Shown piece by piece: positions 501 through 12,715 of a stretch of 12,795 nucleotides of DNA. The stretch comes from an uncultured Sphingobacteriales bacterium. GTDB taxonomy: Bacteria > Bacteroidota > Bacteroidia > Chitinophagales > Chitinophagaceae. The stretch spans positions 1 through 12,795 of the forward strand of contig CAMPKG010000061.1 of the NCBI GenBank assembly GCA_946887085.1. Reading direction: 5' to 3'. A program made the translations under genes and the position numbers. The notes beneath the pieces are model-generated. The model was not told where the DNA came from, did no database searches, and worked only from the letters and a program-made list of their open reading frames with translations. Each line of letters opens with the position of its first letter. The first letter of the stretch is position 1.

Positions 501-1007
501 CTACTTGTTCCTGTACGATTCCGTCACTTCCAGGTAGAAGTACACTCCGAAAGCAACCTGTTCATAAGTATAATGATATTGAAGGAGGTCGTCGGTGAGC
601 GTAAGTACATCTGCGGTCACAGTGTCTTCAGGAAACCAGGCAGAATTTGGATTGAATAATCTCAGCTTTGTATCGTTCTCCAGCAACTGCCAGTAACCGC
701 CGTCAATAGTTTGAGGATCTGAAGGATCGCATTTTGTCGGGCCTTCATCTCCCCTCATAGTTCCATCGGCATTGTAGACGCCAAAATCGTCCTGGTCACA
801 ACTATCAAAATCAGAAATATTGTCCTCTGTCAGCGAGGTATCGCCATCGTAAATGGAATAGGTCTTCACATGTTCGGGATACCATTTGCCGTTGATCAGC
901 GATTGTTTCTTTGTTTTGGGAACAATGTTCTTGTCTTCTTTGTTATTGCAGGATGCAAAAGCAAGAATAGCGGCGCAGCAAAGCGCAACAGGGGTCAACA
1001 GTTTCAT
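501..1007 (-). CDS. Lipocalin-like domain lipoprotein
   Basis: This is a predicted 168-residue lipoprotein. The N-terminus has a hydrophobic segment ending in FASC, giving a lipidated Cys20, followed by NNKEDK. That acidic/lysine stretch resembles the Bacteroidota lipoprotein export signal, so the protein may face the cell surface (inference). The mature part has the layout of Bacteroidota lipocalin-like small lipoproteins: LINGKWYP near residues 37-44, DSCDQDDFG at 68-76, the DGT turn at 81-83, TKCDPSDPQT at 91-100, a YWQL strand, and LTLTDDLLQYHY at 135-146. Cys70 and Cys93 could form a disulfide. The open frame extends 13 codons upstream to 1046, but a consensus promoter at 1031-1061 would place the transcript start near 1024, so the ATG at 1007 is chosen. 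The gene appears monocistronic. The ligand or role is unknown. Confidence 0.8.
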   Translation of the reverse strand: MKLLTPVALCCAAILAFASCNNKEDKNIVPKTKKQSLINGKWYPEHVKTYSIYDGDTSLTEDNISDFDSCDQDDFGVYNADGTMRGDEGPTKCDPSDPQTIDGGYWQLLENDTKLRLFNPNSAWFPEDTVTADVLTLTDDLLQYHYTYEQVAFGVYFYLEVTESYRNK

Positions 1008-1030
1008 ATCAGCAAAGGCTAGGTTTGTTT

Positions 1031-1061
1031 CAAATATAATCAACAACTATGCCGAATTCAA
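1031..1061 (-). promoter_or_regulatory. Bacteroidota-type promoter for the lipocalin-like lipoprotein
   Basis: On the minus strand, TTG (1061-1059) is followed after 20 nt by TATATTTG (1038-1031), an exact match to the Bacteroidota -33 TTG / -7 TAnnTTTG pattern. Transcription should start near 1024, leaving about a 17-nt leader before the ATG at 1007. Confidence 0.75.
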
Positions 1062-1101
1062 ATGCCGGCCTGCGAATGGCCCCCGGTTGGATAAAATAAA
1101 A

Positions 1102-1132
1102 TTGCTAAAACGAATAAAAAATAGTATTTTTG
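1102..1132 (+). promoter_or_regulatory. Divergent Bacteroidota-type promoter with no clear gene downstream
   Basis: TTG (1102-1104), a 20-nt spacer and TATTTTTG (1125-1132) fit the Bacteroidota promoter consensus as well as the minus-strand promoter 40 bp away. Transcription would start near 1139 and run into the AT-rich gap. The next convincing + strand gene starts only at 4174, so the product, if any, would be a short RNA or a very small protein. Confidence 0.5.
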
Positions 1133-1156
1133 TTATGTTATTCAACCTCGAAAGCG

Positions 1157-1175
1157 GTTGACAAGTTCTTTGACA
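1157..1175 (+). repeat. Two TTGACA direct repeats, 12-bp period
   Basis: GTTGACAAG at 1157-1165 is followed by TTGACA at 1170-1175, so the TTGACA core recurs 12 bp apart. The same core occurs in inverted orientation as a triple repeat at 1418-1447. These may be paired binding sites for a DNA-binding protein. Confidence 0.5.
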
Positions 1176-1231
1176 TAAACGCTATCGCCAAAATCAGTAA
1201 TCTGCGGGTCTTAAAATCTTTTTTTTAAAAG

Positions 1232-1311
1232 AACCTTCACAACCGAACGAAGTGAGCTCGTTAAGTCCGCTGAAAAAATTTCTTAAAAATAACCTTAACA
1301 AACCTTCACAA
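1232..1311 (+). repeat. AACCTTMACAA repeat set
   Basis: AACCTTCACAA is present exactly at 1232-1242 and 1301-1311, and the one-base variant AACCTTAACAA is at 1291-1301. The last two are tandem with a 10-bp period, directly followed by the palindrome TTGTTAACAA. A looser copy (AACCTTGTCAA) starts at 1415 and merges with the CTTGTCAATT array. Confidence 0.5.
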
Positions 1312-1417
1312 TTGTTAACAACAAATATGGAAATAGTTGCTATCACCGCCGCTCAGGAAAAATTTCTTCAAAACTGTCAACCGCTAATTCGTGAAAACAA
1401 ATTTTTTTCGAAAAAAC

Positions 1418-1447
1418 CTTGTCAATTCTTGTCAATTCTTGTCAACA
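1418..1447 (+). repeat. Triple CTTGTCAATT tandem repeat, 10-bp period
   Basis: There are three consecutive 10-bp units: CTTGTCAATT (1418-1427), CTTGTCAATT (1428-1437) and CTTGTCAACA (1438-1447). One unit per helical turn would place identical sites on one face of the DNA. On the minus strand the unit reads AATTGACAAG, related to the GTTGACAAG at 1157. A diverged single copy (CTGTCAACCG) is at 1374-1383. Confidence 0.7.
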
Positions 1448-1469
1448 CATATAAAAAAACGAAAACAGA

Positions 1470-2255
1470 TCACGAATTTGCAATAAGCGACTGCAGGTAG
1501 TCCACAGCTTTTACAATACGGCTGCCATACCAGCTAAACATTTCGCCATCTACCAGCAGTACTTCCGCATTGGGTAAAACAGTTTTTACTTCAGCTATGT
1601 GTTTTTCTTTAAAAGGGAAAGGTTCGGAAGAAAGCAATACAAGTTCCGGGGCAAGCTCACGAAGGGTGTCGGCAGTCACTTCAGGGTAACGGTTCTCCCC
1701 TGCGAACACATTGGTCCACCCCATGGTGGTGATCATATTGCTGATGAAGGTATCGCGCCCCACGCTCATCCAGGGGTCGCGCCAGATGAAATAAGCAACG
1801 CGCTTAGAATTGGCGGCCTTTGCAAGCTTATTGAAACCGTTAACGATGTTCTCCACCAGTTCACTGGCCTTTGCATCGGTACCTGTTAGCTGGCCAACAA
1901 CCTGTATCATTTGCAGGGCCTGCGGTATGTTCTGTATATCGCTGATCCATACGGGAAGTTCCGCAGCCAGTTGTTCGATCTGCTCCTGCGTGTTCTCTTC
2001 TTTGTTGGCGATGATGAGGTCGGGTTGCAGCCCGCGTATCTTATCGATGTGCAATTGCTTGGTACCTCCCACCCTTGTCTTGCTGCGGAACCAGCTCTCC
2101 GGATGCACGCAAAACTTAGTGATGCCCACCACCTCATCATTCAATCCCAGATCAGCTAGTAGCTCTGTCTGCGACGGTACCAGTGACACAATGCGCTTCG
2201 GCGGAAATTGAATTTCCACTTCGCGGCCTAACATGTCAATTATCGTGCGCATCAT
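1470..2255 (-). CDS. BtuF/TroA-like helical-backbone metal (cobalamin) receptor without signal peptide
   Basis: This 261-residue protein belongs to the periplasmic-binding-protein class III family (Peripla_BP_2), best matching BtuF-like cobalamin or siderophore binding proteins. Visible hallmarks are PPKRIVSLVPSQTELL (residues 18-33), FCVHPE (48-53), VGGTKQLHIDKIRGLQPDLI (62-81), the central WRDPWMSVGRDTF (158-170), MGWTNVF (178-184), and the C-terminal DGEMFSWYGSR (236-246). It starts MMRTIIDMLGREVEI with no signal peptide or lipobox, unlike a true periplasmic receptor. It may therefore be cytosolic, or the annotated start may miss exported residues. The start ATG overlaps the stop of the upstream membrane-protein gene (ATGA, 4 bp), indicating translational coupling. 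No ABC permease or ATPase lies nearby. Family assignment is firm; the ligand is inferred. Confidence 0.85.
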   Translation of the reverse strand: MMRTIIDMLGREVEIQFPPKRIVSLVPSQTELLADLGLNDEVVGITKFCVHPESWFRSKTRVGGTKQLHIDKIRGLQPDLIIANKEENTQEQIEQLAAELPVWISDIQNIPQALQMIQVVGQLTGTDAKASELVENIVNGFNKLAKAANSKRVAYFIWRDPWMSVGRDTFISNMITTMGWTNVFAGENRYPEVTADTLRELAPELVLLSSEPFPFKEKHIAEVKTVLPNAEVLLVDGEMFSWYGSRIVKAVDYLQSLIANS

Positions 2256-2599
2256 TCGAACCGGCGGAAATAGAAGAATACGAAGAAGGTAAACAGAATA
2301 TCAGCTGGAAACAGCGCATCTGTGTAGTATACGATGTCCATTGGCGTCTTCAGCACAAAACGAAGAATGAGATTGAGTGCCGTAAGCGAGATGTAAGCGT
2401 AGGCTGCCCATTTCTTCATATCGCAGATGAAGAGCCAGCTAATGGCGTAAGCCAGCAACCAGAGCGGCTGCACCCATATCTTCCCTAAAGGCTCGCTGCT
2501 GTACTCGTAAACGCCGTACAGCAAAAGGCCGGTATGAAATAAAGCCACCAGTGGAAATAACACCGGCGGCTTTTTAATGATTCTGTTGATGAATTGCAT
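2252..2599 (-). CDS. Small four-helix integral membrane protein, unknown function
   Basis: This 115-residue hydrophobic protein has four likely transmembrane segments at about residues 11-30, 40-59, 64-82 and 94-111, joined by short loops. It begins MQFINRIIKKPP, a positively charged N-terminus, and ends FYFRRFE. Aromatic residues and prolines cluster at helix ends. No catalytic motif is seen and no family name can be given with confidence. Its TGA stop overlaps the ATG of the BtuF-like gene downstream, so the two are probably co-translated and may act together, for example in metal or cofactor handling (inference). About 100 bp with a large inverted repeat separates it from the upstream enzyme gene, so readthrough from that gene is uncertain. 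No promoter match was found in that gap. Confidence 0.75.
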   Translation of the reverse strand: MQFINRIIKKPPVLFPLVALFHTGLLLYGVYEYSSEPLGKIWVQPLWLLAYAISWLFICDMKKWAAYAYISLTALNLILRFVLKTPMDIVYYTDALFPADILFTFFVFFYFRRFE

Positions 2600-2611
2600 A
2601 ATTACTAATTA

Positions 2612-2688
2612 CTCATTTGCTCAATATCTCAAATACTCAATTAATGTTTTTTACCTGCATTGAGCCATTATGCCACTGAGCAATTGAG
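2612..2688. repeat. Large imperfect inverted repeat built of TTGAGCMAT-like units
   Basis: Arms 2612-2641 and 2659-2688 are reverse complements at 21 of 30 positions, with a 17-nt spacer containing a T-run (2646-2652). Within the arms a short TTGAG(C/T)-type unit recurs: ATTGAGCCATT starts at 2659 and again at 2683. The other arm carries the complementary CTCAAT pieces. It sits between the stop of the PLP enzyme gene and the membrane-protein start. It could be an extragenic palindromic element, or act as a weak terminator or processing site. Confidence 0.6.
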
Positions 2689-2698
2689 CCATTTAAAA

Positions 2699-4072
2699 TT
2701 ATCCTTTGCTGAATGCATTCAGTATGTCGTACTTGGTAAGGATGTGATATTGCCCGCTTTCGTCTTTGGTAAGGATGGCACCATTGTCTTTGTTGATATA
2801 ATGTGTCAGCCTTTCAAGGGGCGTATTGGCATCTACCGTGGGCAGAGCAGCTTCTTTCACATCGGCTATCATGAAGTCTTTGACATCAGGATTCTCAATG
2901 AGTTTTTTGAACAGTCCGCCTTGCGTGATCGCTCCTGTTACTTCTCCGTCTTTCATCACCGGCACCTGCTCGATATCGTATTTCTTCATCAGGTCGAGTG
3001 CGTCGCTCACTTTGGCGTCTTCATCAATGGTTACCAGCCTGCGACGACCGAGGCCGCCCAGCAGATCCTTCACCGTATCGACATCGAGGAAGCCGCGATC
3101 CAGCATCCATTCATCGTTATATACTTTACCAACATAGCGGCTGCCATGATCGTGGAAGATGACAACAACTACATCGGTCGGCTTCAGTTGGTCTTTCAGT
3201 TGTTTCAGGCCTGCGATAACAGAGCCGGCAGAGTATCCCGCAAAAATGCCTTCTTCTTTGGCGATCTTCCGGGCCATCACGGCGCCGTCTTTATCGGTCA
3301 CTTTTTCAAACTGGTCGATCGCATCCTTGATATAGTTTTGCGGCAGGAAATCCTCACCGAAACCCTCAGAGATGTACGGATACACTTCGTTCATATCCAG
3401 CTCGCCGGTCTCAAACCACTTTTTCAACAAAGACCCGTAAGTATCAATCGCCCATACTTTGATGTTGGGGTTCTTCTCTTTCAGGTACATACCGGTACCC
3501 ACTATAGTACCGCCAGTACCCGCAGCCACCACGAGGTGTGTTATTTTACCTTCGGTCTGCTCCCATATCTCCGGGCCGGTCTGCTCGTAGTGCGCCTGGC
3601 GGTTGGCGAGGTTGTCGTACTGGTTCACATACCAGCTGTTGGGTATCTCGGTAGCCAGTCGTTTGGAAACTGAATAATAAGAGCGCGGGTCTTCGGGTTC
3701 TACATTGGTAGGACAAACGATCACCTCAGCGCCAAGGGCTTTGAGGATGTCGGCCTTCTCTTTCGATTGTTTATCCGTAGTGGCGAAAATGCATTTGTAT
3801 CCCTTTACGATGGCGGCCAGCGCCAGGCCCATACCTGTGTTGCCGGATGTTCCTTCGATGATGGTACCGCCGGGCTTGATCTTGCCTTCCTGCTCAGCTA
3901 CCTCCAGCATCTTCAGAGCCATGCGGTCTTTGATGGAGTTGCCGGGGTTGAAGCTTTCTACCTTAGCATAAACCGCGCACGGAAGATCTGCTGTGACCCT
4001 GTGCAGTTTTATAAGAGGGGTATTGCCAATAGTTTGCAGGATGTTGTCGTAAACACGCTTGTTGGGAGTCAT
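2699..4072 (-). CDS. Cystathionine beta-synthase-type PLP enzyme with C-terminal CBS-domain pair
   Basis: This predicted 457-residue fold-type II PLP enzyme is expected to condense serine or an activated serine with homocysteine (transsulfuration), or to make cysteine. The N-terminal part carries NTPLIKL (17-23), the PLP lysine in SIKDR (Lys48), the substrate/cofactor loop EGTSGNTG (73-80), and the phosphate-binding GTGGT (185-189). SEGFGEDF (235-242) and HGSRYVGK (309-316) are typical of cystathionine beta-synthases. Residues about 345-455 form two CBS motifs, e.g. YDIEQVPVMKDGEVTGAIT and the final ILTKYDILNAF, probably a ligand-sensing regulatory module. Length and domain order fit bacterial CBS enzymes. 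The open frame extends to a TTG at 4108, but MTPNKRVYDN at the ATG (4072) matches the family start better. The long + strand frame inside it is a shadow. Confidence 0.93.
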   Translation of the reverse strand: MTPNKRVYDNILQTIGNTPLIKLHRVTADLPCAVYAKVESFNPGNSIKDRMALKMLEVAEQEGKIKPGGTIIEGTSGNTGMGLALAAIVKGYKCIFATTDKQSKEKADILKALGAEVIVCPTNVEPEDPRSYYSVSKRLATEIPNSWYVNQYDNLANRQAHYEQTGPEIWEQTEGKITHLVVAAGTGGTIVGTGMYLKEKNPNIKVWAIDTYGSLLKKWFETGELDMNEVYPYISEGFGEDFLPQNYIKDAIDQFEKVTDKDGAVMARKIAKEEGIFAGYSAGSVIAGLKQLKDQLKPTDVVVVIFHDHGSRYVGKVYNDEWMLDRGFLDVDTVKDLLGGLGRRRLVTIDEDAKVSDALDLMKKYDIEQVPVMKDGEVTGAITQGGLFKKLIENPDVKDFMIADVKEAALPTVDANTPLERLTHYINKDNGAILTKDESGQYHILTKYDILNAFSKG

Positions 4073-4173
4073 GGGGCGAAGGTAAAAAATAGTTGAAACA
4101 TCCGTCAATTATGGGAATGTGAAACAGAAGGCGAGTGGCAAGGTTTTATAGCCTTCAACAGAAACTTTTGAAT

Positions 4174-4680
4174 ATGAGTGACCATAAAGACCTGCAGAAC
4201 CATGAAGGGATCGAAAAACTGAAGAAGATAGCTATGGATGTGGACATATGTATGTTCTGCACCAATGTGTCGGGGATACCTTTCGATACAAGGCCAATGA
4301 GCACGCAGGATGTGGATGACCAGGGCAACCTTTGGTTCATGAGCAAAAAAGGCAGTAACAAGGACCAGGAAATAAAACAGGACGACCGGGTACAACTGCT
4401 TTATGCCGACAAGAAAAGCTCAGACTACATGACCGTCAACGGCCACGCCGATGTTTTCTACGACAGGCAGAAGGTAGGAGAGCTCTGGAAACCACATGCA
4501 AAAGCATGGTTCACAGAAGGCAAAGATGACCCGGAAATAAGCATTATCCGCGTACGTCCTGAAGAAGCGTATTACTGGGATACCAGGCACGGTGGCATGG
4601 TGGCGTTCTTCAAAATGATGGTGTCTGCCGCCGTTGGAAAGACGATGGATGACAGCGTGGAAGGCTCAATAAAACCTTAG
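4174..4680 (+). CDS. Pyridoxamine 5'-phosphate oxidase-fold protein (general stress protein 26-like)
   Basis: This 168-residue soluble protein has the split-barrel flavin-binding fold of the PNPOx-like family, in the general stress protein 26 branch. Landmarks are an N-terminal helix (EGIEKLKKIAMDV), the strand CMFCTN, the conserved FDTRPMSTQDVDDQGNLWF (37-55), FMSKKGSNKDQEI (55-67), VQLLYADKKSSDYMTVNGHA (73-92), and the WKPHAKAWFTEGKDDPEI motif (105-122). The family usually binds FMN or FAD and may reduce or protect against small oxidised molecules; its substrate is unknown, and it is not expected to be the biosynthetic PdxH. The ATG at 4174 is preferred over an upstream GTG at 4135 because the family begins near MSDHKDLQNHEGIEKL. 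It is divergent from the PLP enzyme gene with about 100 bp between starts. No clean promoter match was found. Confidence 0.87.
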   Translation: MSDHKDLQNHEGIEKLKKIAMDVDICMFCTNVSGIPFDTRPMSTQDVDDQGNLWFMSKKGSNKDQEIKQDDRVQLLYADKKSSDYMTVNGHADVFYDRQKVGELWKPHAKAWFTEGKDDPEISIIRVRPEEAYYWDTRHGGMVAFFKMMVSAAVGKTMDDSVEGSIKP

Positions 4681-4734
4681 GCAAAAATGTTATCCACATA
4701 GTACCAACAGCCTAATAACGAACCATTTACAAAC

Positions 4735-4752
4735 GTATGGTTAAGACCATAC
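4735..4752. repeat. Perfect inverted repeat, possible operator or weak terminator
   Basis: GTATGGT (4735-4741) and ACCATAC (4746-4752) are perfect reverse complements around TAAG. No T-run follows, so it is not a standard terminator. It lies between the stress-protein stop and the start of the small secreted protein, where an operator would be plausible. Confidence 0.4.
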
Positions 4753-4827
4753 AAAGCTGTTGTTAAACCCTTTGAAAAATTATGAAATCGCTAAGCCATG
4801 TATCACCTTTGCTAAAACATAATAGTC

Positions 4828-5190
4828 ATGAAACAGAAAGTTGCCTTCCTTCTCTTCGCAATATTGACCGCCACCGGTGCAGAAGCACGTAAGAACAAAA
4901 AGAATACGGTAGAACTTTCGTACCCCGCCAATAACGCGATCGTTGCAGGCACAGTTGCTGCTCCGCATGAGATAACTGTAAAGACAGACAATACTTTCAA
5001 CATTAATATCACTACCGAGCAGGCAAGCCCAACCGGTCCCCGGGTAATTATCGAGAACGGACGGAACCTGGTAGTATCGGGCAGCACAGACCAAAACCAC
5101 GATTACCACGTGACCTACAATGCCAGCCAGGATGAATTCATCTCGGGCACGTACGACGTCAGCCTGGTTTACACTGCGTCTGTAGAATAG
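4828..5190 (+). CDS. Small secreted beta-rich protein, unknown function
   Basis: This 120-residue protein has a clear Sec signal peptide: MKQK, a hydrophobic core VAFLLFAILTATG, and likely cleavage after AEA at residue 20. The mature ~100 residues begin with a basic stretch (RKNKKN). They then alternate beta-strand-like segments and turns: VELSYPANNAIVAG, EITVKTDN, FNINITTEQA, RVIIENGRNLVVSGSTDQ, YHVTYNA, YDVSLVYTASV. There are no cysteines in the mature part, no lipobox and no T9SS tail, so it is probably periplasmic. The pattern suggests a small beta-sandwich, but no family is recognised. It follows the stress-protein gene by about 150 bp that includes an inverted repeat, so it is likely transcribed separately. 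A terminator lies about 150 bp downstream. Confidence 0.75.
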   Translation: MKQKVAFLLFAILTATGAEARKNKKNTVELSYPANNAIVAGTVAAPHEITVKTDNTFNINITTEQASPTGPRVIIENGRNLVVSGSTDQNHDYHVTYNASQDEFISGTYDVSLVYTASVE

Positions 5191-6462: not shown

Positions 6463-6540
6463 AATTTAAGACATTTGCGTGACGAACCTCCCCCTTTTCG
6501 GCATCGAATTTGTGAATTTTTAAATACTAAACCTATTTTT

Positions 6541-7479
6541 ATGAAATCCCTAAACCTCACTATCATTCTGCTCTTTTGCTATTTCTGCTCTTTTGCCCAA
6601 CAGTATGTGCCTATGCCTACGGGCGAGGTACAATGGCGCTATAGAAGAATTTTCAACCCACCGTCATATCCGACTACGGACTATCACGACTTTCTACTCG
6701 TTCAAACCGGCGGTGATACTATTTTCGGCGGGGTCACTTACAAAAAAATAATGTGGCGGGAACGCGATACCAAGGTCGTAAAAACTTCGACATACATTCC
6801 CCCCATCCAATCCGTTGTGGCAAATCAAACTGACCGGTTTTACCTTGCCATCCGCGAGGACAATAAAAAAGTGTATGTAAACTCCGGCAACGGAGAAAAG
6901 TTGATGTTTGATTTTACGGCAGCGGTAGGCGACACGTTGCCATACCACAATTTCTACAACTGGCCAGATACACAACTCGTGGTAACGTCTATTGATAGCG
7001 TGCAAATAGGAGCCACTTTCCACAAACGATACAATGCAGACAGGATAAGCAACTTTGGAGGCAGCATATCAATAATAGAGGGGATCGGCACCGACCTTGG
7101 CCTCATTGGATATCTTTACACACCGTATTGTTATTGTTCCTATACCTTCCATTGCTTCAGTGATGGGAACACAAGCTACGTACCCAATGCGCCTTGTGCA
7201 TACATCTGGCCGCAAGGCACACCTACCAATGTTGATGATGTGAAGGAGAAGACAGACATCTTCGTCTTTCCCAATCCATTTCAGGATAAACTGACCATAG
7301 AAACGACGCAATCGGTCTCAATTTTTTTATATAACCTGACCGGCCAACTCGTTCTCAAACAAAACCTGCGAAACAATTCAACTATTCAAACCTCACACTT
7401 ACCTTCGGGTATATATTTACTTAAGCTTACCGGCAGCAGTAGCAACATTGTTGAAACCCGCAAGCTTGTAAAAGAATAA
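6541..7479 (+). CDS. T9SS-exported protein with C-terminal sorting domain
   Basis: This 312-residue secreted protein starts with a Sec signal peptide (MKSLNLTIILLFCYFCSFA, cleavage before QQ, about residue 20). It ends in a type A type IX secretion sorting domain at about 237-312: IFVFPNPFQDKLTI, IFLYNLTGQLVLKQN, LPSGIYLLKL, RKLVKE. It should be carried across the outer membrane by T9SS and released or anchored with removal of the tail. The middle part (21-230) is beta-rich and contains IIEGIGTDLGLIG (178-190), a motif seen in other uncharacterised Bacteroidota T9SS cargo. A cysteine cluster (Cys197, 199, 205, 219) may form disulfides. No catalytic motif is recognised. ATG 6541 is chosen because it begins the signal peptide. 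The next gene starts 8 bp after its stop, so the two are probably co-transcribed. Confidence 0.88.
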   Translation: MKSLNLTIILLFCYFCSFAQQYVPMPTGEVQWRYRRIFNPPSYPTTDYHDFLLVQTGGDTIFGGVTYKKIMWRERDTKVVKTSTYIPPIQSVVANQTDRFYLAIREDNKKVYVNSGNGEKLMFDFTAAVGDTLPYHNFYNWPDTQLVVTSIDSVQIGATFHKRYNADRISNFGGSISIIEGIGTDLGLIGYLYTPYCYCSYTFHCFSDGNTSYVPNAPCAYIWPQGTPTNVDDVKEKTDIFVFPNPFQDKLTIETTQSVSIFLYNLTGQLVLKQNLRNNSTIQTSHLPSGIYLLKLTGSSSNIVETRKLVKE

Positions 7480-7487
7480 TTGACACA

Positions 7488-8120
7488 ATGAAGTTGATCG
7501 CGCTTGTTTTAGCTATTGGAGTTAGCACAAATATTCTGGCCCAGGAGCGCACGATGAACATCGGGGTAGGCGCAGCACCGTCAACCGCATTAAATATTGC
7601 TGCGGATAAAACAACCATGTCAGGCCTTACCGGCCATGTCAACTACTATTCCGTCAGTAAAAAAGGCATAGTCCATGGCATCGGCATAAGCGCTGCACAG
7701 CTTGCCGTAGGAAACCGCGGCATCCTGAGAATTAATGGCAGCGAATATCCTATACTGAATAGGGACAGCTACGCCAATCCCGCATTGACATTAACCGGCT
7801 TTCTCGGACGCGAGGTAAAATTCGGCAGCTCGTCTGTTATGTTTGGCGGTCGGGGTGGTGTGTTCTATGCATTCCAGGAAAACGGGGGCATAGGCATTAC
7901 GGCTGGTGCGGGCGGCAGCTATACGCTACACCTGGACGAGCGCAAAGCGGTAGGGGTTAGCTTCTTCCCGCAACTTTATTATGTCCGTGCATTGCAGATA
8001 GCTTCTCCGAAAGAACGAAATTCAATATTTTTCCTCCCCTCTGTCACCATCAATTATTACCTCGCCCTGCCCAAAATGAAGATGGCTGTCTTGCCAACTG
8101 AAGAAAACCCTGCCGAATAG
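7488..8120 (+). CDS. Outer-membrane-beta-barrel-like secreted protein
   Basis: This 210-residue protein has a signal peptide MKLIALVLAIGVSTNILA (cleavage about 18/19 before QE). The mature chain has glycine-rich amphipathic strands alternating with short turns: MNIGVGAAPS, GLTGHVNYYSVSKKG, GIGISAAQLAVGN, LTLTGFLGREVKFG, SVMFGGRGGVFYAF, GGIGITAGAGGSYTLHL, AVGVSFFPQLYYVRAL and SIFFLPSVTINYYLAL. This pattern resembles a small outer-membrane beta-barrel of eight or so strands. The C-terminus continues past the last strand with a polar tail (MAVLPTEENPAE), which is not typical for a barrel end. It lies 8 bp after the T9SS cargo gene and probably belongs to the same transcript. The function is unknown, and a soluble periplasmic beta protein is an alternative. 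Confidence 0.7.
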   Translation: MKLIALVLAIGVSTNILAQERTMNIGVGAAPSTALNIAADKTTMSGLTGHVNYYSVSKKGIVHGIGISAAQLAVGNRGILRINGSEYPILNRDSYANPALTLTGFLGREVKFGSSSVMFGGRGGVFYAFQENGGIGITAGAGGSYTLHLDERKAVGVSFFPQLYYVRALQIASPKERNSIFFLPSVTINYYLALPKMKMAVLPTEENPAE

Positions 8121-8191
8121 CACGGCGCCTTTGCTAGCCACCATCAAACCGCAAGTCCAATAATTGTGTTTTCTCTGTATTTTACATACCC

Positions 8192-8908
8192 ATGGGTACT
8201 AAAATAAAAATGCTGGGGCTGGTGGGTTTCGGCTGGCTATCAAACGCGGACTACTACCGGTATATCAACGAGGGTATTAACCGGGAGTTGGGTGGTATGA
8301 ACTTTGCCAGCTGCATCATGCACTCGTTCAACCAGGGGGAAATAAAAATCCATATGGATGCGGGAGATGTATCACGCGTGATGGACATGATCATAACCGC
8401 CTGCAAAAACATGGAAAGAAGCGGAGCCGAGGGCCTGGTCTTGTGCGCCAACACCATGCATATGTTCGCAGATAGCATCCAGGCGCAGGTAAATACGCCG
8501 ATCATTCATATCATAGATGCCACAGCTCAGGCAATAAAGGTACGATCGCTTAAAAAGGTGGGCCTGCTCGGTACCAAGCCTACAATGGAACTCGACTTCT
8601 ATAAAGACCGGCTGCAGCAACAGGGAATAGAAGCTATAATACCTGGCGATACTGCTGACCGTGAATTTATCCACCATACTATTTTTGACGAGCTGGCAAA
8701 AGGGATGATGACGGAAGAAACGAAAAGCAGGTATCTCGACATTATCAATAAGCTAGCCGAACGCGGAGCGGAAGGTGTCATTCTTGGCTGCACAGAGATA
8801 CCGCTATTAATAAAGCAAGAAGATGTTACGATGCCGGTATTTGATACTACACGGATACATGCTGAGGCTGCAATCAGATTTTCGCTGGGTAAAACACAAT
8901 ACGCATAA
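8192..8908 (+). CDS. Aspartate/glutamate racemase family protein
   Basis: This 238-residue cytosolic enzyme belongs to the PLP-independent Asp/Glu racemase superfamily, which epimerises amino acids using two cysteines. Both are visible: Cys85 in LVLCANTMHM and Cys200 in GVILGCTEIPLL. Other landmarks are the N-terminal LGLVGFGWLSNADYYRYIN (8-26, aligned with the family GGMS-W-S-YYR-IN motif), HSFNQGEI (44-51), PIIHIIDATAQAI (103-115) and KKVGLLGTKPTMELDFY (121-137). Length is normal for the family. Substrate (aspartate, glutamate or other) cannot be read from sequence. The N-terminal VGFGWLSN departs from the usual GGMSWEST, which may alter specificity. A second Met (residue 7) is an alternative start. 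The stop is 2 bp from the next gene, so the pair forms an operon. Confidence 0.9.
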   Translation: MGTKIKMLGLVGFGWLSNADYYRYINEGINRELGGMNFASCIMHSFNQGEIKIHMDAGDVSRVMDMIITACKNMERSGAEGLVLCANTMHMFADSIQAQVNTPIIHIIDATAQAIKVRSLKKVGLLGTKPTMELDFYKDRLQQQGIEAIIPGDTADREFIHHTIFDELAKGMMTEETKSRYLDIINKLAERGAEGVILGCTEIPLLIKQEDVTMPVFDTTRIHAEAAIRFSLGKTQYA

Positions 8909-8910
8909 CT

Positions 8911-9390
8911 ATGAAACAGACTTCCATCAACCTGCTTACCGTTATACAGCAGGCCATGCACTTGCTGAGAAATATTTCTGACGACGATGCATCTGTAAAG
9001 CCCGCACCGGGCAAATGGTCGCAGAAGGAGATCATCGGGCACTTGCTGGACAGCGCCTGCAACAACCAGCAAAAGTTTGTACGGACCATGCTGGAAGACG
9101 AGAATCATTTCCCACCTTATGCGCAGGACGAATGGGTAGGAGCGCAACGTTACAACGATGCAGACTGGCACGATCTGCTGAGCCTTTGGGAAGCCTATAA
9201 CATACAGCTGGCGCACATTATCAGGAACATCCCCGATGATGCCTTGCAGAAGAAAATATTCATTGGCGATAAGGGACCTTTCACTTTGGGTTTTATCGCT
9301 GCTGATTATGTAGAACACATGAAACACCACCTGAAAGCTGTATTGCCGGACGCCAATTTCCTCAGCAACTATTTCAAAATGATCTATTAA
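8911..9390 (+). CDS. DinB-fold (DinB_2) putative metal-dependent protein
   Basis: This 159-residue protein has the four-helix-bundle DinB/YfiT fold. The conserved metal-binding histidines appear to be His44 in EIIGHLLDSACNNQQKF and His136 and His140 in DYVEHMKHHLKAV near the C-terminus. The family signature PAPGKWSQKEIIGHL (31-45) is intact, as is the central YAQDEWVGAQRYND region (70-83). Members include bacillithiol/thiol S-transferases and many with unknown substrates, and nickel or zinc is the usual metal. It is encoded 2 bp after the racemase gene, so the two products are made together. Whether they share a pathway is unknown. A perfect palindromic terminator follows the stop. Confidence 0.9.
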   Translation: MKQTSINLLTVIQQAMHLLRNISDDDASVKPAPGKWSQKEIIGHLLDSACNNQQKFVRTMLEDENHFPPYAQDEWVGAQRYNDADWHDLLSLWEAYNIQLAHIIRNIPDDALQKKIFIGDKGPFTLGFIAADYVEHMKHHLKAVLPDANFLSNYFKMIY

Positions 9391-9393
9391 TAA

Positions 9394-9419
9394 AAGCGCC
9401 CTGCAATTGCAGGGCGCTT
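9394..9419. terminator. Perfect palindrome acting as bidirectional terminator
   Basis: This 26-bp perfect palindrome has 13-bp arms, GC-rich at the base and with AATT at the centre. It lies between convergent genes ending at 9390 (+) and 9443 (-). On the minus strand it is followed by TTTTATTAATA, a better T-run than on the plus strand (TTCCGCATTT), so it likely serves the minus-strand redox cluster most strongly. Confidence 0.8.
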
Positions 9420-9442
9420 CCGCATTTATATCTGTTAAGGTC

Positions 9443-10438
9443 TTACCAGATCTTGTTGCGCGAACCCTCGAAGCCCTTAGGGCGCACAATGGTAAATACG
9501 CGCGAAATATTGAAACCAAAATGGATTCCACCATCAAACCAATCGTCGGCGCTCTGGCCGATGAACGAACGTTCGGTCATGGCTATAGCGTTGGTCAGCA
9601 TCAGTTGGAACACGTGGCCGCCCGTTTCTATATCCAGGCCTACCGATACCGAATTGTGGTAACCTTTCAGTTCATTAAGACGATAGTAATATTCCCCTGT
9701 CAGTGATATACGGTTTGACAGTTTCAAACGTCCGCCCAGGCCTAAAGCATATATGTTGTTGGGTTCTGCAGTAGTAGGCACCAGGTTGTAATGTATATGC
9801 GTAGGCATCAACTGCAGCGACAGCCAGTTATTGAATTTACGCGCGATCAGTAATTGATTGACATAATACAGCCTGTTACTGAAGTAATATTCAGGCTGTA
9901 CGGTATCGCCTGGGGCTACTACTACCGGCGCTATTGTTGGTGCCGGCATGGTTTGTACAGATATCGCCCCTACATAGCTTACCGAGACCGGCATTGAATT
10001 ATTGTCGGTTTGGCGCAGCAGCTTTATTTTGGTAAAGCCTGCTACCTCTTTCTGGAAACCGCTTCGGCTAATACCAACCATCAGCCAGTCTGTGATTCCA
10101 TAGTCGAAACCGATGGAAGTATTAGCGCCATCAAGTCCAAAGAAATCTTTCAGGCCGGAGTTGATGGGGCCAAAACGGTGGCTCACCCTGAAATCAAGTA
10201 CGCCGTGTGCAACATTCTCAATGCTATGGCCATTGATAATACGGGTAGACTTAAATGTTGATGTAGTATATTCTTTTTTTGGAGCAGCATTGTCCTCTTC
10301 CTCCAGCATACTCATCAGGTCGTCTGATGAGTCCTCATTCGTCTCTGTTTGCTGCTTCTTATCATCCTGTGCATACAGGGCAGCCGGTGACAGGGTCAAC
10401 ATCGCGGCTGTGAACAGAACTGCTGAAGCTATACGCAT
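9443..10438 (-). CDS. DUF5777 family outer-membrane beta-barrel protein
   Basis: This 331-residue exported protein matches the Bacteroidota beta-barrel family DUF5777. The signal peptide MRIASAVLFTAAMLTLSPAALYA is cleaved about residue 23. A charged acidic stretch (about 26-50, DEEE-rich) then leads into KSTRIINGHSIENV and LDFRVSHRFGPI (about 63-92), the family's recognisable N-terminal motif. The remainder shows repeated amphipathic strands and aromatic girdles: TSIGFDYGITDWLMVGISRS, YYFSNRLYYVNQLLIARKF, RISLTGEYYYRLNELKG, SVSVGLDIETGGHVFQLML and a final IHFGFNISRVFTIVRP. The family has no established function. It is the last gene of a same-strand cluster with YceI and cytochrome-like lipoproteins, suggesting a redox or transport role at the outer membrane (inference). 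A terminator lies 24 bp beyond the stop. Confidence 0.88.
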   Translation of the reverse strand: MRIASAVLFTAAMLTLSPAALYAQDDKKQQTETNEDSSDDLMSMLEEEDNAAPKKEYTTSTFKSTRIINGHSIENVAHGVLDFRVSHRFGPINSGLKDFFGLDGANTSIGFDYGITDWLMVGISRSGFQKEVAGFTKIKLLRQTDNNSMPVSVSYVGAISVQTMPAPTIAPVVVAPGDTVQPEYYFSNRLYYVNQLLIARKFNNWLSLQLMPTHIHYNLVPTTAEPNNIYALGLGGRLKLSNRISLTGEYYYRLNELKGYHNSVSVGLDIETGGHVFQLMLTNAIAMTERSFIGQSADDWFDGGIHFGFNISRVFTIVRPKGFEGSRNKIW

Positions 10439-10466
10439 AACTAGTTTTTAAACGCGGGTAAGATAT

Positions 10467-11012
10467 TTATTTCTGGGTTAAGATACTGCTGACTGTTACC
10501 TCTATCTGCCTGGCGATCTTACCTTCCATCAGCTTTGGTATCGAGATATTGTAGTCAGCAGTTTTCACATTGAACTTTGAATTGATTGCAGCTGTATTTC
10601 CTTTTACTACGATGGTGCCGGGCAGCGACACGTCCTTGGTAACGCCATGTATGGTCAGCTTGCCCGCGGTTTTTACGTTATAGCTACCATCTTTGGAAAA
10701 GTTCACTCCCGAAAGGTCGGCGACCTTTCCTTTGAATTCGGCCTTGGGGTATTTATCACTCTCCATGTAGTTCTCATTAAAGTGCTCCTGCATCAGTGCT
10801 TTCTCGAACTTAAAGCTTTTGATAGGCACCTGGAACACCACGTCACCTGTTTTGGCATCCATCACGCCTGCTACTTCATTGTTAAATGCTTCAATGTTTT
10901 CTAGTGGTGTAGCCGAAAAGAAAGAAGCTTTACCCGTGCGTGTCATATACTTTTGTGCATAAAGGTTCGTGGCACTGCAAACTAACATAGCTGCGATCAT
11001 CATCTTTTTCAT
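10467..11012 (-). CDS. YceI family periplasmic protein
   Basis: This 181-residue protein has a signal peptide MKKMMIAAMLVCSATNLYA (cleaved before QK) and a single YceI domain, a lipocalin-like beta-barrel known in some members to bind polyisoprenoid lipids or quinones. Family landmarks are TRTGKASFFSATPLENIEAF (24-43), VVFQVPIKSFKFEKALMQEHFNENYMES (58-85, quoted in two parts: the core strand and the MQEHFNE segment), KYPKAEFKG (87-95), and the highly conserved GKLTIHGVTKDVSLP (117-131). It is 28 bp upstream of the DUF5777 gene and 25 bp downstream of a cytochrome-like lipoprotein gene, all on the same strand, consistent with one operon. Binding a redox-active isoprenoid would fit this neighbourhood, but that is inference. 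Confidence 0.93.
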   Translation of the reverse strand: MKKMMIAAMLVCSATNLYAQKYMTRTGKASFFSATPLENIEAFNNEVAGVMDAKTGDVVFQVPIKSFKFEKALMQEHFNENYMESDKYPKAEFKGKVADLSGVNFSKDGSYNVKTAGKLTIHGVTKDVSLPGTIVVKGNTAAINSKFNVKTADYNISIPKLMEGKIARQIEVTVSSILTQK

Positions 11013-11037
11013 ACGTCTTATTTTATTGCTCTGTTTA

Positions 11038-11412
11038 CTAATTATTTAACGCTCCCTGGTTCACCCATTTGGCGATCAGGTCTATGGAGGCAGCATCGAG
11101 CTGCGGCATTCCTTTCGGCATTTGCGAATAGCCGGGTTGCCATTTAATGGCGCCGATCATCCGTGGCGCAGCATCCTTTGCACCGGTGTGGCTGGACAGG
11201 TTATAACCACCACCCAGGCTGTTAGCATCGTGGCATGCCGGGATCGCGCATTTCGAGGTAAGTATCGGCAACACTTTTGCTGAGAATGAAACCGTGTCTC
11301 CGCCCCCGCCCGACGGCGGTGGTGTGACGGGCGCAGGGTATAATTGGTCTTGTTTGTCGTTATAGCAACCAACTAAAGTTGCGATACATAAAACGGCAAA
11401 TATTCTTTTCAT
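11038..11412 (-). CDS. Single-domain cytochrome c-like lipoprotein with CX4CH site
   Basis: This 124-residue lipoprotein has lipobox LVGC (lipid on Cys16) followed by YNDKQD and a Pro/Gly-rich linker (about 25-40). One cytochrome c-like domain fills the rest: KVLPILTSKCAIPACHDANS gives a CX4CH haem-attachment motif (Cys55, Cys60, His61). A second segment, YSQMPKGMPQLD, supplies a candidate axial Met98, and the C-terminal helix IDLIAKWVNQGALNN is typical of planctomycete-type cytochrome domains. The spacing CX4CH is unusual compared with CXXCH, so haem attachment needs a tolerant maturation system. The domain closely resembles both domains of the neighbouring larger lipoprotein, suggesting duplication. 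It is anchored in an envelope membrane and probably passes electrons. A non-haem structural role is the alternative. Confidence 0.82.
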   Translation of the reverse strand: MKRIFAVLCIATLVGCYNDKQDQLYPAPVTPPPSGGGGDTVSFSAKVLPILTSKCAIPACHDANSLGGGYNLSSHTGAKDAAPRMIGAIKWQPGYSQMPKGMPQLDAASIDLIAKWVNQGALNN

Positions 11413-11461
11413 AGATTTTTGTTCTGCGGTTAATATCTAAAACTACAATTTTTATAGCTCA

Positions 11462-12229
11462 TTAATTATTCTGTGCGCCGTCGGCCACCCATTTTTCAAC
11501 CTGCCGGATCTGGCAAGCCGAAAGTTTAACACCACCTTTAGGCATTGGCGAGTAACCTCCAAGATGGTTGATAGCACCCAGCAGTCTTCCATTATCCACC
11601 ACCTTCTTCAAACCGGCATAGCTATCAAAAGCATAACCTCCCTGCAGCGATGTAGAATTATGGCATCCCTGGCAGTACTTTTCTGTTAACGGCCTAATAT
11701 CAGTGGAATATTTAAAGTTGTTACTGTCGCAGGGGCTGCTGCAATTGGTACCGTTTTTTGCACCCTCATTTATCCACCTGCCTATCATCAATATCTGGCT
11801 GGTACTTAGCCGTGGATTTGGCGCCCTTGGCATACGGTCGTCATTATCGTCCTCGGTAATGGCCTCGTATATCTTTGTACCTTCTGCATCACCCGGCTCA
11901 AAATCGTCGTTATTTACAATTGAGTTATAGTCTGTGAGCTGATAACCATCGGACCTGCTGGCCGCATCATGGCAACCACTTTTAGCACAATTAGAAATGA
12001 AGATGGGAAGAATATCCCTTTCGAAACATATACCGGTATCCACTGGGTTGGAAGGATTGGGATTGTTTGGATTCGGGTTTGGATTTGAGTTACCGGGATT
12101 ACTGTTGTTCCCGCCCGTCGTTGTATTGGGCGTGGCCGGCTGCACAGTTTCCTTATGCGTACAGCTATTCATCATCATTATACCACCTACAAACAATAAG
12201 CCAAGCTTCAGCGTACGTATCATTTCCAT
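11462..12229 (-). CDS. Two-domain cytochrome c-like lipoprotein (CX4CH and CXXCH)
   Basis: This 255-residue lipoprotein has a hydrophobic leader ending NSC (lipid on Cys23). An N/P/G/S/T-rich linker at about 34-64 with NP repeats follows and probably spaces the domains from the membrane. Domain 1: DILPIFISNCAKSGCHDAAS has CX4CH (Cys81, Cys86, His87) with candidate ligand Met133 in DRMPRAP, closed by ILMIGRWINEGAKNG. Domain 2: IRPLTEKYCQGCHNS has canonical CXXCH (Cys186, Cys189, His190) with Met229 in YSPMPKGG, closed by VEKWVADGAQNN. Cys163, Cys167 and Cys239 may form extra disulfides. Both domains belong to the planctomycete-type cytochrome group. The protein could carry up to two haems. Met3 (12223) is an alternative start. 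It is 29 bp after the OB-fold gene and 49 bp before the single-domain relative. Confidence 0.85.
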   Translation of the reverse strand: MEMIRTLKLGLLFVGGIMMMNSCTHKETVQPATPNTTTGGNNSNPGNSNPNPNPNNPNPSNPVDTGICFERDILPIFISNCAKSGCHDAASRSDGYQLTDYNSIVNNDDFEPGDAEGTKIYEAITEDDNDDRMPRAPNPRLSTSQILMIGRWINEGAKNGTNCSSPCDSNNFKYSTDIRPLTEKYCQGCHNSTSLQGGYAFDSYAGLKKVVDNGRLLGAINHLGGYSPMPKGGVKLSACQIRQVEKWVADGAQNN

Positions 12230-12258
12230 TCCAGGTTTTACTTTTTAACTAGTCCGCT

Positions 12259-12669
12259 CTACTCAACAATGCAATCGGTAAGCAGCACATCAAACATTGT
12301 ATTGCCCGAGCAAAAACCTTTCACTGTTACAGTTTTCCCTTTTTCGGCGGTTGCCCCATTGTCCCTCATCGTGCACTGTACATTCATCATATCATTTCCC
12401 TGGAGGCGAATCACCGGTTTACCTTCCTGGTTGGCAATAACCTCCTCAACAATGCCGCTCACTTCAAGTGCCTGGTTCAGAAACTTCTTATTAGCTTCTG
12501 TCTCATTATTGCCGAACTCGTTACAAAGATCGACAGCAGTTATTTCTATTCCTTTTTTATCCTCGACCTTTGCCGGGGCTTTGTTCCACATGGTTATGCC
12601 AACACCCGCGCCAATTGCCACGAATGCTCCAAGAACGATCAGGATAAACGGCCATTTTTTCTTATTCAT
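12259..12669 (-). CDS. Membrane-anchored OB-fold (tRNA_anti-like) protein
   Basis: This 136-residue protein has a basic N-terminus (MNKKK) and one transmembrane segment (about 6-28), anchoring an exported domain. The domain matches the tRNA_anti-like OB-fold family of Bacteroidota: ITAVDLCNEFGNNETEANKKF (43-63, in part), ALEVSGIVEEV (67-77), PVIRLQG (85-91), VQCTM (97-101), KTVTVKGFCSG (112-122) and DVLLTDCIVE (127-136). Despite the name, the family is not shown to bind tRNA, and here it would lie outside the cytoplasm. Four cysteines (49, 99, 120, 133) could form two disulfides. The frame reaches a TTG at 12684, but that codon overlaps the -7 promoter box, so ATG 12669 is the start. It is the first gene of the redox cluster. 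Confidence 0.85.
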   Translation of the reverse strand: MNKKKWPFILIVLGAFVAIGAGVGITMWNKAPAKVEDKKGIEITAVDLCNEFGNNETEANKKFLNQALEVSGIVEEVIANQEGKPVIRLQGNDMMNVQCTMRDNGATAEKGKTVTVKGFCSGNTMFDVLLTDCIVE

Positions 12670-12681
12670 TCTTTTCAGTTT

Positions 12682-12715
12682 CAAAAGTAAATTTTATGAA
12701 GATGGAGACTTACAA
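12682..12715 (-). promoter_or_regulatory. Promoter of the cytochrome/YceI/DUF5777 cluster
   Basis: On the minus strand TTG (12715-12713) precedes TACTTTTG (12689-12682) by 23 nt, matching TTG / TAnnTTTG. Transcription would start near 12675, leaving a leader of about six nucleotides before ATG 12669. The TTG overlaps the stop codon region of the upstream partial frame. Confidence 0.6.

Follow-up and report, generated by a model that had tools for sequence, protein, structure and literature searches.

Five genes lying head to tail on the minus strand of contig CAMPKG010000061.1, from an uncultured Sphingobacteriales bacterium, raise the question of whether an OB-fold protein, two c-type cytochromes (designated CytL and CytS), a YceI-family lipocalin and a DUF5777 outer-membrane beta-barrel act together and, if so, in what process. 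The whole stretch of DNA analysed, 12,795 nucleotides, is referred to here as the window. A previous reading of its letters alone (the original prediction) had proposed that these genes form an undescribed envelope redox module. All five open reading frames (ORFs) were found at the place and on the strand that it gave, running from 12669 to 9443 with successive gaps of 29, 49, 25 and 28 bp, against the 25-49 bp it stated. The reading that we prefer, with about an even chance of being right, is that the genes are one operon for an envelope relay that passes electrons from a quinol to a carrier at the outer membrane.

Conservation of the gene order, which the original prediction had put forward as its own check, was determined in two sets of genomes. 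Set 1 consisted of the best 80 of at least 581 DUF5777 relatives from one-per-species genomes, together with four plasmid records and the window, giving 88 DUF5777 copies; genes on the same strand within 3.5 kb were counted as neighbours. The results showed that YceI was present beside 81 of the 88 copies (the window being included in the counts), a cytochrome beside 78, an OB-family gene beside 73 and all three beside 62. The exact gene order of the window was seen in 11 loci, itself included, and the order Cyt2-Cyt1-OB-YceI-DUF5777 in 12; a cultured relative with a similar order is Taibaiella koreensis (L010). The gaps between neighbouring genes had a median of 13 bp, 95% being shorter than 100 bp (249 pairs).

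Set 2 was a phylum-wide draw of 148 Bacteroidota genomes, with a same-strand limit of 4 kb and profiles built from the closest relatives (set 1). For the family alignments, locus proteins were selected on their length and number of haem motifs (A3, 76/78; A4, 60/60; A5, 24/35; A6, 25/56; A7, 21/52; A8, 35/35), and a selected part of the neighbours was assigned to families by Pfam. DUF5777 was matched in 62 of the 148 genomes, three of them by weak matches only, and in none of 14 control genomes. From 83 DUF5777 places 79 were fetched, the four weakest (E > 1e-10) being left out; three of these four are the sole matches of genomes G048, G075 and G083, which still count within the 62. Among the 79 loci a cytochrome was found in 63, YceI in 60, OB in 15 and all three in 13, with at least one of them in 75. 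By chance an adjacent YceI gene would be expected about 0.005 times per locus (mean of 4.27 YceI genes per genome, 4-Mb genomes assumed), and the association of DUF5777 with YceI, counted on fetched loci, is thus far above chance. The proposed check was therefore passed strongly, and as far as gene neighbourhood goes there is strong support for a single module. Its membership had to be redrawn: since OB was present in only 15 of the 79 loci, and together with YceI and a cytochrome in only 13, the core consists of DUF5777, YceI and a one-electron carrier, and the OB and two-haem genes are additions that are commoner among the relatives of the window.

The strongest argument for a redox role is that the carrier is exchanged. 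In six set 2 loci (L087, L105, L109, L141, L155 and L162) a secreted Rieske-type protein was found and no cytochrome (Fisher p 6e-6). A single profile recovered all six proteins with E values no weaker than 1e-47, that of L109 being confirmed by Pfam (PF00355), and the cluster motifs CXH and CX2H are present in 8/9 Rieske-type neighbours overall and 5/6 in the phylum-wide sample. A search of the other neighbours of the six loci within 4.5 kb revealed no CX2-5CH motif. On the DUF5777 tree the Rieske/no-cytochrome label requires four changes, forced by starred branches, or three if the short, contig-cut locus L156 is omitted. In L127, a cupredoxin lipoprotein stands in place of the cytochrome (PF00127, 8e-14; the cupredoxin profile was built without the type IX secretion system tail domain). 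Altogether, 73 of the 79 loci have a one-electron carrier: 66 a cytochrome (either strand counted), six a Rieske-type protein and L127 the cupredoxin. In three of the remaining six (L092, L114 and L156) the contig ends within the locus. At genome level, a CytS-type protein was detected in 59 of the 62 DUF5777 genomes versus 42 of the 86 others (p 3e-10), and the three DUF5777 genomes lacking it are G113 (Rieske, L155), G062 (Rieske in L141 and cupredoxin in L127) and G023 (the contig-cut L156). The redox character given to the module by the original prediction is well supported by this exchange.

The quinol side also varies. In six loci within one nine-member clade (100*), DUF5777 and a cytochrome are accompanied by proteins related to NrfD, to a 4Fe-4S protein and to an Ig-like protein, and YceI is absent; the labels come from Pfam for L138 (and L137 for the 4Fe-4S protein) and from profiles for the rest. 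An EB_dh-type protein is encoded in three of these loci and in two other clade members. NrfD proteins are membrane subunits that react with quinols. Being confined to one clade, the case is weaker than that of the Rieske proteins, yet it sets a quinol-side part beside the same barrel. A small twin-arginine (Tat)-like protein of the NrfD loci was considered as a high-potential iron-sulphur protein and rejected, three showing no Pfam match and the one sequence inspected having no cysteine. Four other loci without YceI encode a second cytochrome of about 340 aa.

By sequence, the two cytochromes look like the haem lipoproteins that had been predicted. In 36 CytL sequences, selected for two haem motifs, the haem cysteines and histidines, M133, P134 and P230 are invariant and M229 is conserved in at least 90%, and a profile of 25 sequences matched FoxE (E 3.6e-6). 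In 61 CytS sequences, selected for one haem motif, C55, C60, H61 and P99 are invariant and M98 is conserved in at least 90%; the 124-aa CytS has no Pfam match, and its family profile matched cytochrome c6 structures, the best at 1.7e-6. Both window proteins thus have the CXnCH motif and distal methionine of His/Met c-type cytochromes. Among the cytochrome matches near the sampled DUF5777 genes, CX2-5CH was kept in 81/81, a count that is partly circular because the search profile itself contains the motif, and a downstream MP in 79/81. The CX4CH spacing of the window, like the CX5CH found in L014, L019 and L068, is rarer than CX2CH. Relatives of CytL often begin C-x-H-[DE]-P after the lipidated cysteine (C23-H25 in the window), the histidine being nearly invariant.

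The lipocalin scored 66.6 bits against a Pfam gathering score of 23.7 (PF04264), and its family profile matched solved YceI structures including 5ixg, 5ixh and 1y0g. The accessible part of a study of YceI proteins lists ubiquinone-8 or other isoprenoids among their ligands (PMC9113575). The DUF5777 protein scored 317.3 bits against 23.1 and covers positions 1-247 of the 247-position domain (PF19089). Its predicted structure is a barrel of 12 strands whose nearest folds include KdgM, FapF, NanC and COG4313 and which also resembles FadL and TodX; its sequence contains no haem motif. One protein of 569 aa (P0008) has two DUF5777 barrels in tandem in a single chain.

The OB protein resembles CcmE in its OB fold and membrane anchor, as judged from a structural model and an alignment. 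CcmE is a haem chaperone whose haem-binding histidine, His130, lies in a C-terminal tail, whereas the OB protein has no such tail: its chain ends where CcmE residue 128 aligns, and no conserved C-terminal histidine was found in 26 aligned sequences of the family. tRNA synthetases, the top Foldseek matches, were set aside as reflecting the common OB fold only. Of the 15 OB matches with E up to 1e-20 in the 148 genomes, 13 adjoin DUF5777. Eight of the 22 genomes with an OB-family match, G106 (locus L164) among them, lack DUF5777.

In the relay that we prefer, a reduced isoprenoid lipid would donate the electrons, menaquinol being the most likely one in Bacteroidota, and YceI would ferry the lipid across the periplasm. 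Single electrons would then be handed to a small carrier of high potential at the outer membrane: CytL and CytS, both His/Met cytochromes, in the window, and a Rieske-type protein or a cupredoxin elsewhere. The 12-stranded DUF5777 barrel would be the constant partner in the outer membrane, receiving or positioning the carrier and opening a path to the final acceptor, and the membrane-anchored OB protein probably serves as a docking site for YceI or a cytochrome at the inner membrane. Several observations weigh against this relay. Carrier exchange is not strict, because a Rieske-type protein and a cytochrome occur together in L001, L014 and L019 (set 1), as do a cupredoxin and a cytochrome in L091 and L096 (set 2). 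The Rieske-type protein of L087 has CXH and lacks the usual second CX2H, and L125, L133 and L148 have no carrier in reach and no contig end to account for its absence. No ORF of the fetched loci matched two module families on separate parts (E 1e-6), so no fusion joins them. NrfD in place of YceI is probably a single acquisition, since it is confined to one clade. Finally, octaprenyl phosphate and octaprenylphenol are further ligands of YceI proteins, according to the accessible part of the same study (PMC9113575).

Compared with this relay, a trans-outer-membrane conduit, in which electrons would exit to an acceptor outside, with CytS on the surface, CytL facing the periplasm and DUF5777 between them, appears unlikely to us. 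It would suit the linkage of barrel and cytochrome genes in most loci, and the loci with NrfD, 4Fe-4S and EB_dh proteins have the look of a quinol oxidase connected to this barrel. The original prediction had compared the layout to a porin-cytochrome conduit, a likeness that turned out to be less well supported. Conduits of the MtrCAB type have a barrel of more than 20 strands sheathing a multihaem cytochrome; the present genes likewise encode a barrel together with c-type cytochromes, but the modelled barrel, at 12 strands, is about the size of KdgM and NanC, and the window cytochromes have one or two haem motifs each, so that a barrel around a multihaem wire is unlikely and the literal form of the comparison is disfavoured. 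As the barrel contains no haem motif, the membrane gap would not be bridged by a known cofactor. Cyc2, a fused cytochrome-porin in which a one-haem cytochrome and a small barrel form a single polypeptide, is similar in pairing these two parts, but here they belong to separate genes and families and no fusion was found in the loci searched. A further point concerns the start of CytS, which in relatives of the window reads CYYDxEE, with a mean of 2.25 acidic residues at positions +2 to +7 (48 proteins), whereas 73 other lipoproteins predicted in these loci average 1.0 (p 1e-9); the start of CytL did not differ from that of other lipoproteins in these loci (p 0.24). CYYDxEE is reminiscent of the signal that directs Bacteroidetes lipoproteins to the surface, in the accessible part of its description (PMC5080379). 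It is not an exact match to that signal, K-(D/E)2 or similar immediately after the lipidated cysteine, and because the difference was not significant in the phylum-wide sample (1.45 in 71 cytochromes of both kinds versus 1.20 in 46 others, p 0.09), surface export of CytS is kept as a hint only.

Another explanation, which we also rate as improbable, is an envelope antioxidant in which quinol bound to YceI would quench lipid peroxyl radicals at the outer membrane while the carriers shuttle electrons, as has been proposed for the LcoA-BcnA system of Burkholderia cenocepacia. There, as far as the accessible part of the source goes, the YceI lipocalin BcnA is linked to a cytochrome b561 and acts with it against lipid peroxyl radicals, and mutants build up lipid peroxides (PMC9113575). 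An envelope YceI lipocalin genetically tied to a cytochrome is common to both systems, whereas the BcnA partner is a membrane cytochrome and the window has c-type lipoproteins, a DUF5777 barrel and an OB protein; none of the PF01292 (cytochrome b561-type) matches listed (E to about 1e-5) lies near DUF5777. The antioxidant would fit an inducible system, and profiles placed relatives of a propeller-type histidine kinase and of a LytTR response regulator (Pfam for L026) no more than 4 kb away on the module strand in 22 and 25 loci, respectively, only 3 and 4 of these belonging to set 2, a distribution that suggests induction in some lineages. The antioxidant reading leaves the barrel without a role, and the potential of His/Met cytochromes is usually too high for them to re-reduce menaquinone. 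The presence of haem-copper oxidase (COX1) in 62/62 DUF5777 genomes says little here, since it is found in 141/148 overall; for the same reason it was discarded as a sign of a link to aerobic respiration, and the cytochrome assembly family PF01578, present in 148/148 genomes, was equally uninformative.

That DUF5777 is an uptake or export channel for a small hydrophobic or redox-active YceI ligand, which the cytochromes would oxidise or reduce, is quite unlikely. Its nearest folds are channel proteins of similar size (KdgM, NanC and COG4313) as well as FadL and TodX-like ones, and YceI is a lipid-binding family, but the neighbour clusters identified, which are part of all clusters, show no recurrent family of catabolic enzymes, and carriers of three redox types suit plain electron transfer better. 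Least probable, in our estimate hardly to be expected, is that the genes are merely regulated together, perhaps in response to iron or haem supply, and work separately. Gene order is indeed variable, and the OB and two-haem genes are often missing; against these stand the phylum-wide linkage with its exchange of carrier types, the tight gaps among the closest relatives and the strong OB matches that adjoin DUF5777.

The two closest described systems, LcoA-BcnA and a protein named Cbp2D, both lack this set of parts. A second case of a YceI-like protein coupled to a cytochrome is known from the gammaproteobacterium Cellvibrio japonicus. Its Cbp2D contains a YceI-like, quinone-binding X158 domain and a small c-type cytochrome, X183, within one large polypeptide that also carries CBM2 and FnIII domains, and the accessible part of the source names no barrel or OB protein (PMC12542752). 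LcoA-BcnA and Cbp2D are thus precedents for YceI working with cytochromes and not for the DUF5777 module. A literature search found no paper that names DUF5777 or PF19089, which agrees with the module having been called undescribed, none with YceI and tRNA_anti-like together and none combining YceI, Bacteroidota and cytochrome; under older phylum names no description of the gene set was seen. One paper, in its accessible part, gives YceI and cytochrome c in separate, unlinked lists (PMC5429918).

The features of the window are collected in Table 1. The original prediction had every product directed to the envelope, and the sequences agree with this: the model of the OB protein has a helix at residues 6-28, the lipobox cysteine is residue 23 in CytL and residue 16 in CytS, and signal peptides were assigned by eye to YceI and DUF5777. 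The listed ORF of the OB gene reaches a TTG at 12684, and the ATG at 12669 is the likelier start, because relatives align from it and in view of the helix. The predicted strong terminator is present as a 13-bp stem with a U run; it is near-palindromic, sits between two convergent genes and also lies behind the convergent plus-strand gene. The single promoter said to lie ahead of the genes was not established: sigma-70-like sites numbered 21 in the window against 20.1 in shuffled sequence, and TAnnTTTG, which we take to be the Bacteroidetes-type promoter consensus, occurred 11 times against 10.3 expected, the chance level. The copy at 12689-12682, the only one on the minus strand between 4738 and the end of the window, is a candidate and a guess from sequence.

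Table 1. Features of the module and its flanks in the window
Feature	Position	Strand	Evidence
OB-fold protein with N-terminal membrane anchor (tRNA_anti-like, PF12869), 136 aa	12259..12669	-	Pfam 4.5e-19
CytL, two-domain c-type cytochrome lipoprotein, CX4CH and CX2CH, 255 aa	11462..12229	-	PSCyt1 5e-9
CytS, one-haem c-type cytochrome lipoprotein, CX4CH, 124 aa	11038..11412	-	family profile, cytochrome c6
YceI-family lipocalin, 181 aa, signal peptide by eye	10467..11012	-	PF04264 4e-18
DUF5777 outer-membrane beta-barrel, 331 aa, signal peptide by eye	9443..10438	-	PF19089 7.6e-95
Intrinsic terminator behind the operon	9394..9421	-	-25.5 kcal/mol, z -5.87
Candidate -7 element TACTTTTG, Bacteroidetes-type promoter (TAnnTTTG word)	12682..12689	-	TAnnTTTG word

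Close protein relatives with a named source come from Flavipsychrobacter, Sphingobacteriales, Chitinophagales and unplaced Bacteroidetes metagenome-assembled genomes. On the plus strand of the window, two adjacent genes (8192-9390), the first of the Asp/Glu racemase family and the second of the DinB family, converge on the module and share the terminator region, and the product of 6475-7479 carries a Por_Secre_tail domain, used for sorting in type IX secretion. Among the related loci, a Hymenobacter volaticus plasmid (L002) has two copies of cytochrome-YceI-DUF5777 (867-5178 and 7289-9199) with the same YceI protein accession, adjoining truncated haemoglobin and hemA. On the Emticicia plasmid pEMTOL02 (L001, 2050-10130), Rieske-DUF5777-YceI-cytochrome adjoins a CcsA cytochrome c biogenesis gene, an outer-membrane barrel and a sigma factor. 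Two flavobacterial loci, L053 and L063, have Lipoprotein_15 repeats upstream (Pfam), L063 also a LytTR regulator (Pfam), and look-alikes of these upstream genes were recognised by eye in two more flavobacterial loci, L069 and L082; L053 further has a haem-binding/cytochrome P460 protein.

The literature search found no described system with these parts in Bacteroidota, and about two in five of the sampled genomes of this phylum (62/148, three of them weak) carry a DUF5777 barrel, a family that the literature searched does not name. More tentatively than for the window itself, and as a possibility that we would not yet favour, Bacteroidota may own a general class of outer-membrane electron transfer built round DUF5777, in which a quinol-side part (YceI, or 4Fe-4S and NrfD proteins) would feed an exchangeable one-electron carrier (c-type cytochrome, Rieske-type protein or cupredoxin) working with a 12-strand barrel. 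Such a system would need no multihaem wire to bring electrons to the outer membrane or through it. With its links to quinol-side parts and to three kinds of one-electron carrier, DUF5777, so far a family with no assigned function, becomes part of an electron-transfer system that can be tested, and, if the reading is true, YceI lipocalins would gain a partner other than cytochrome b561.

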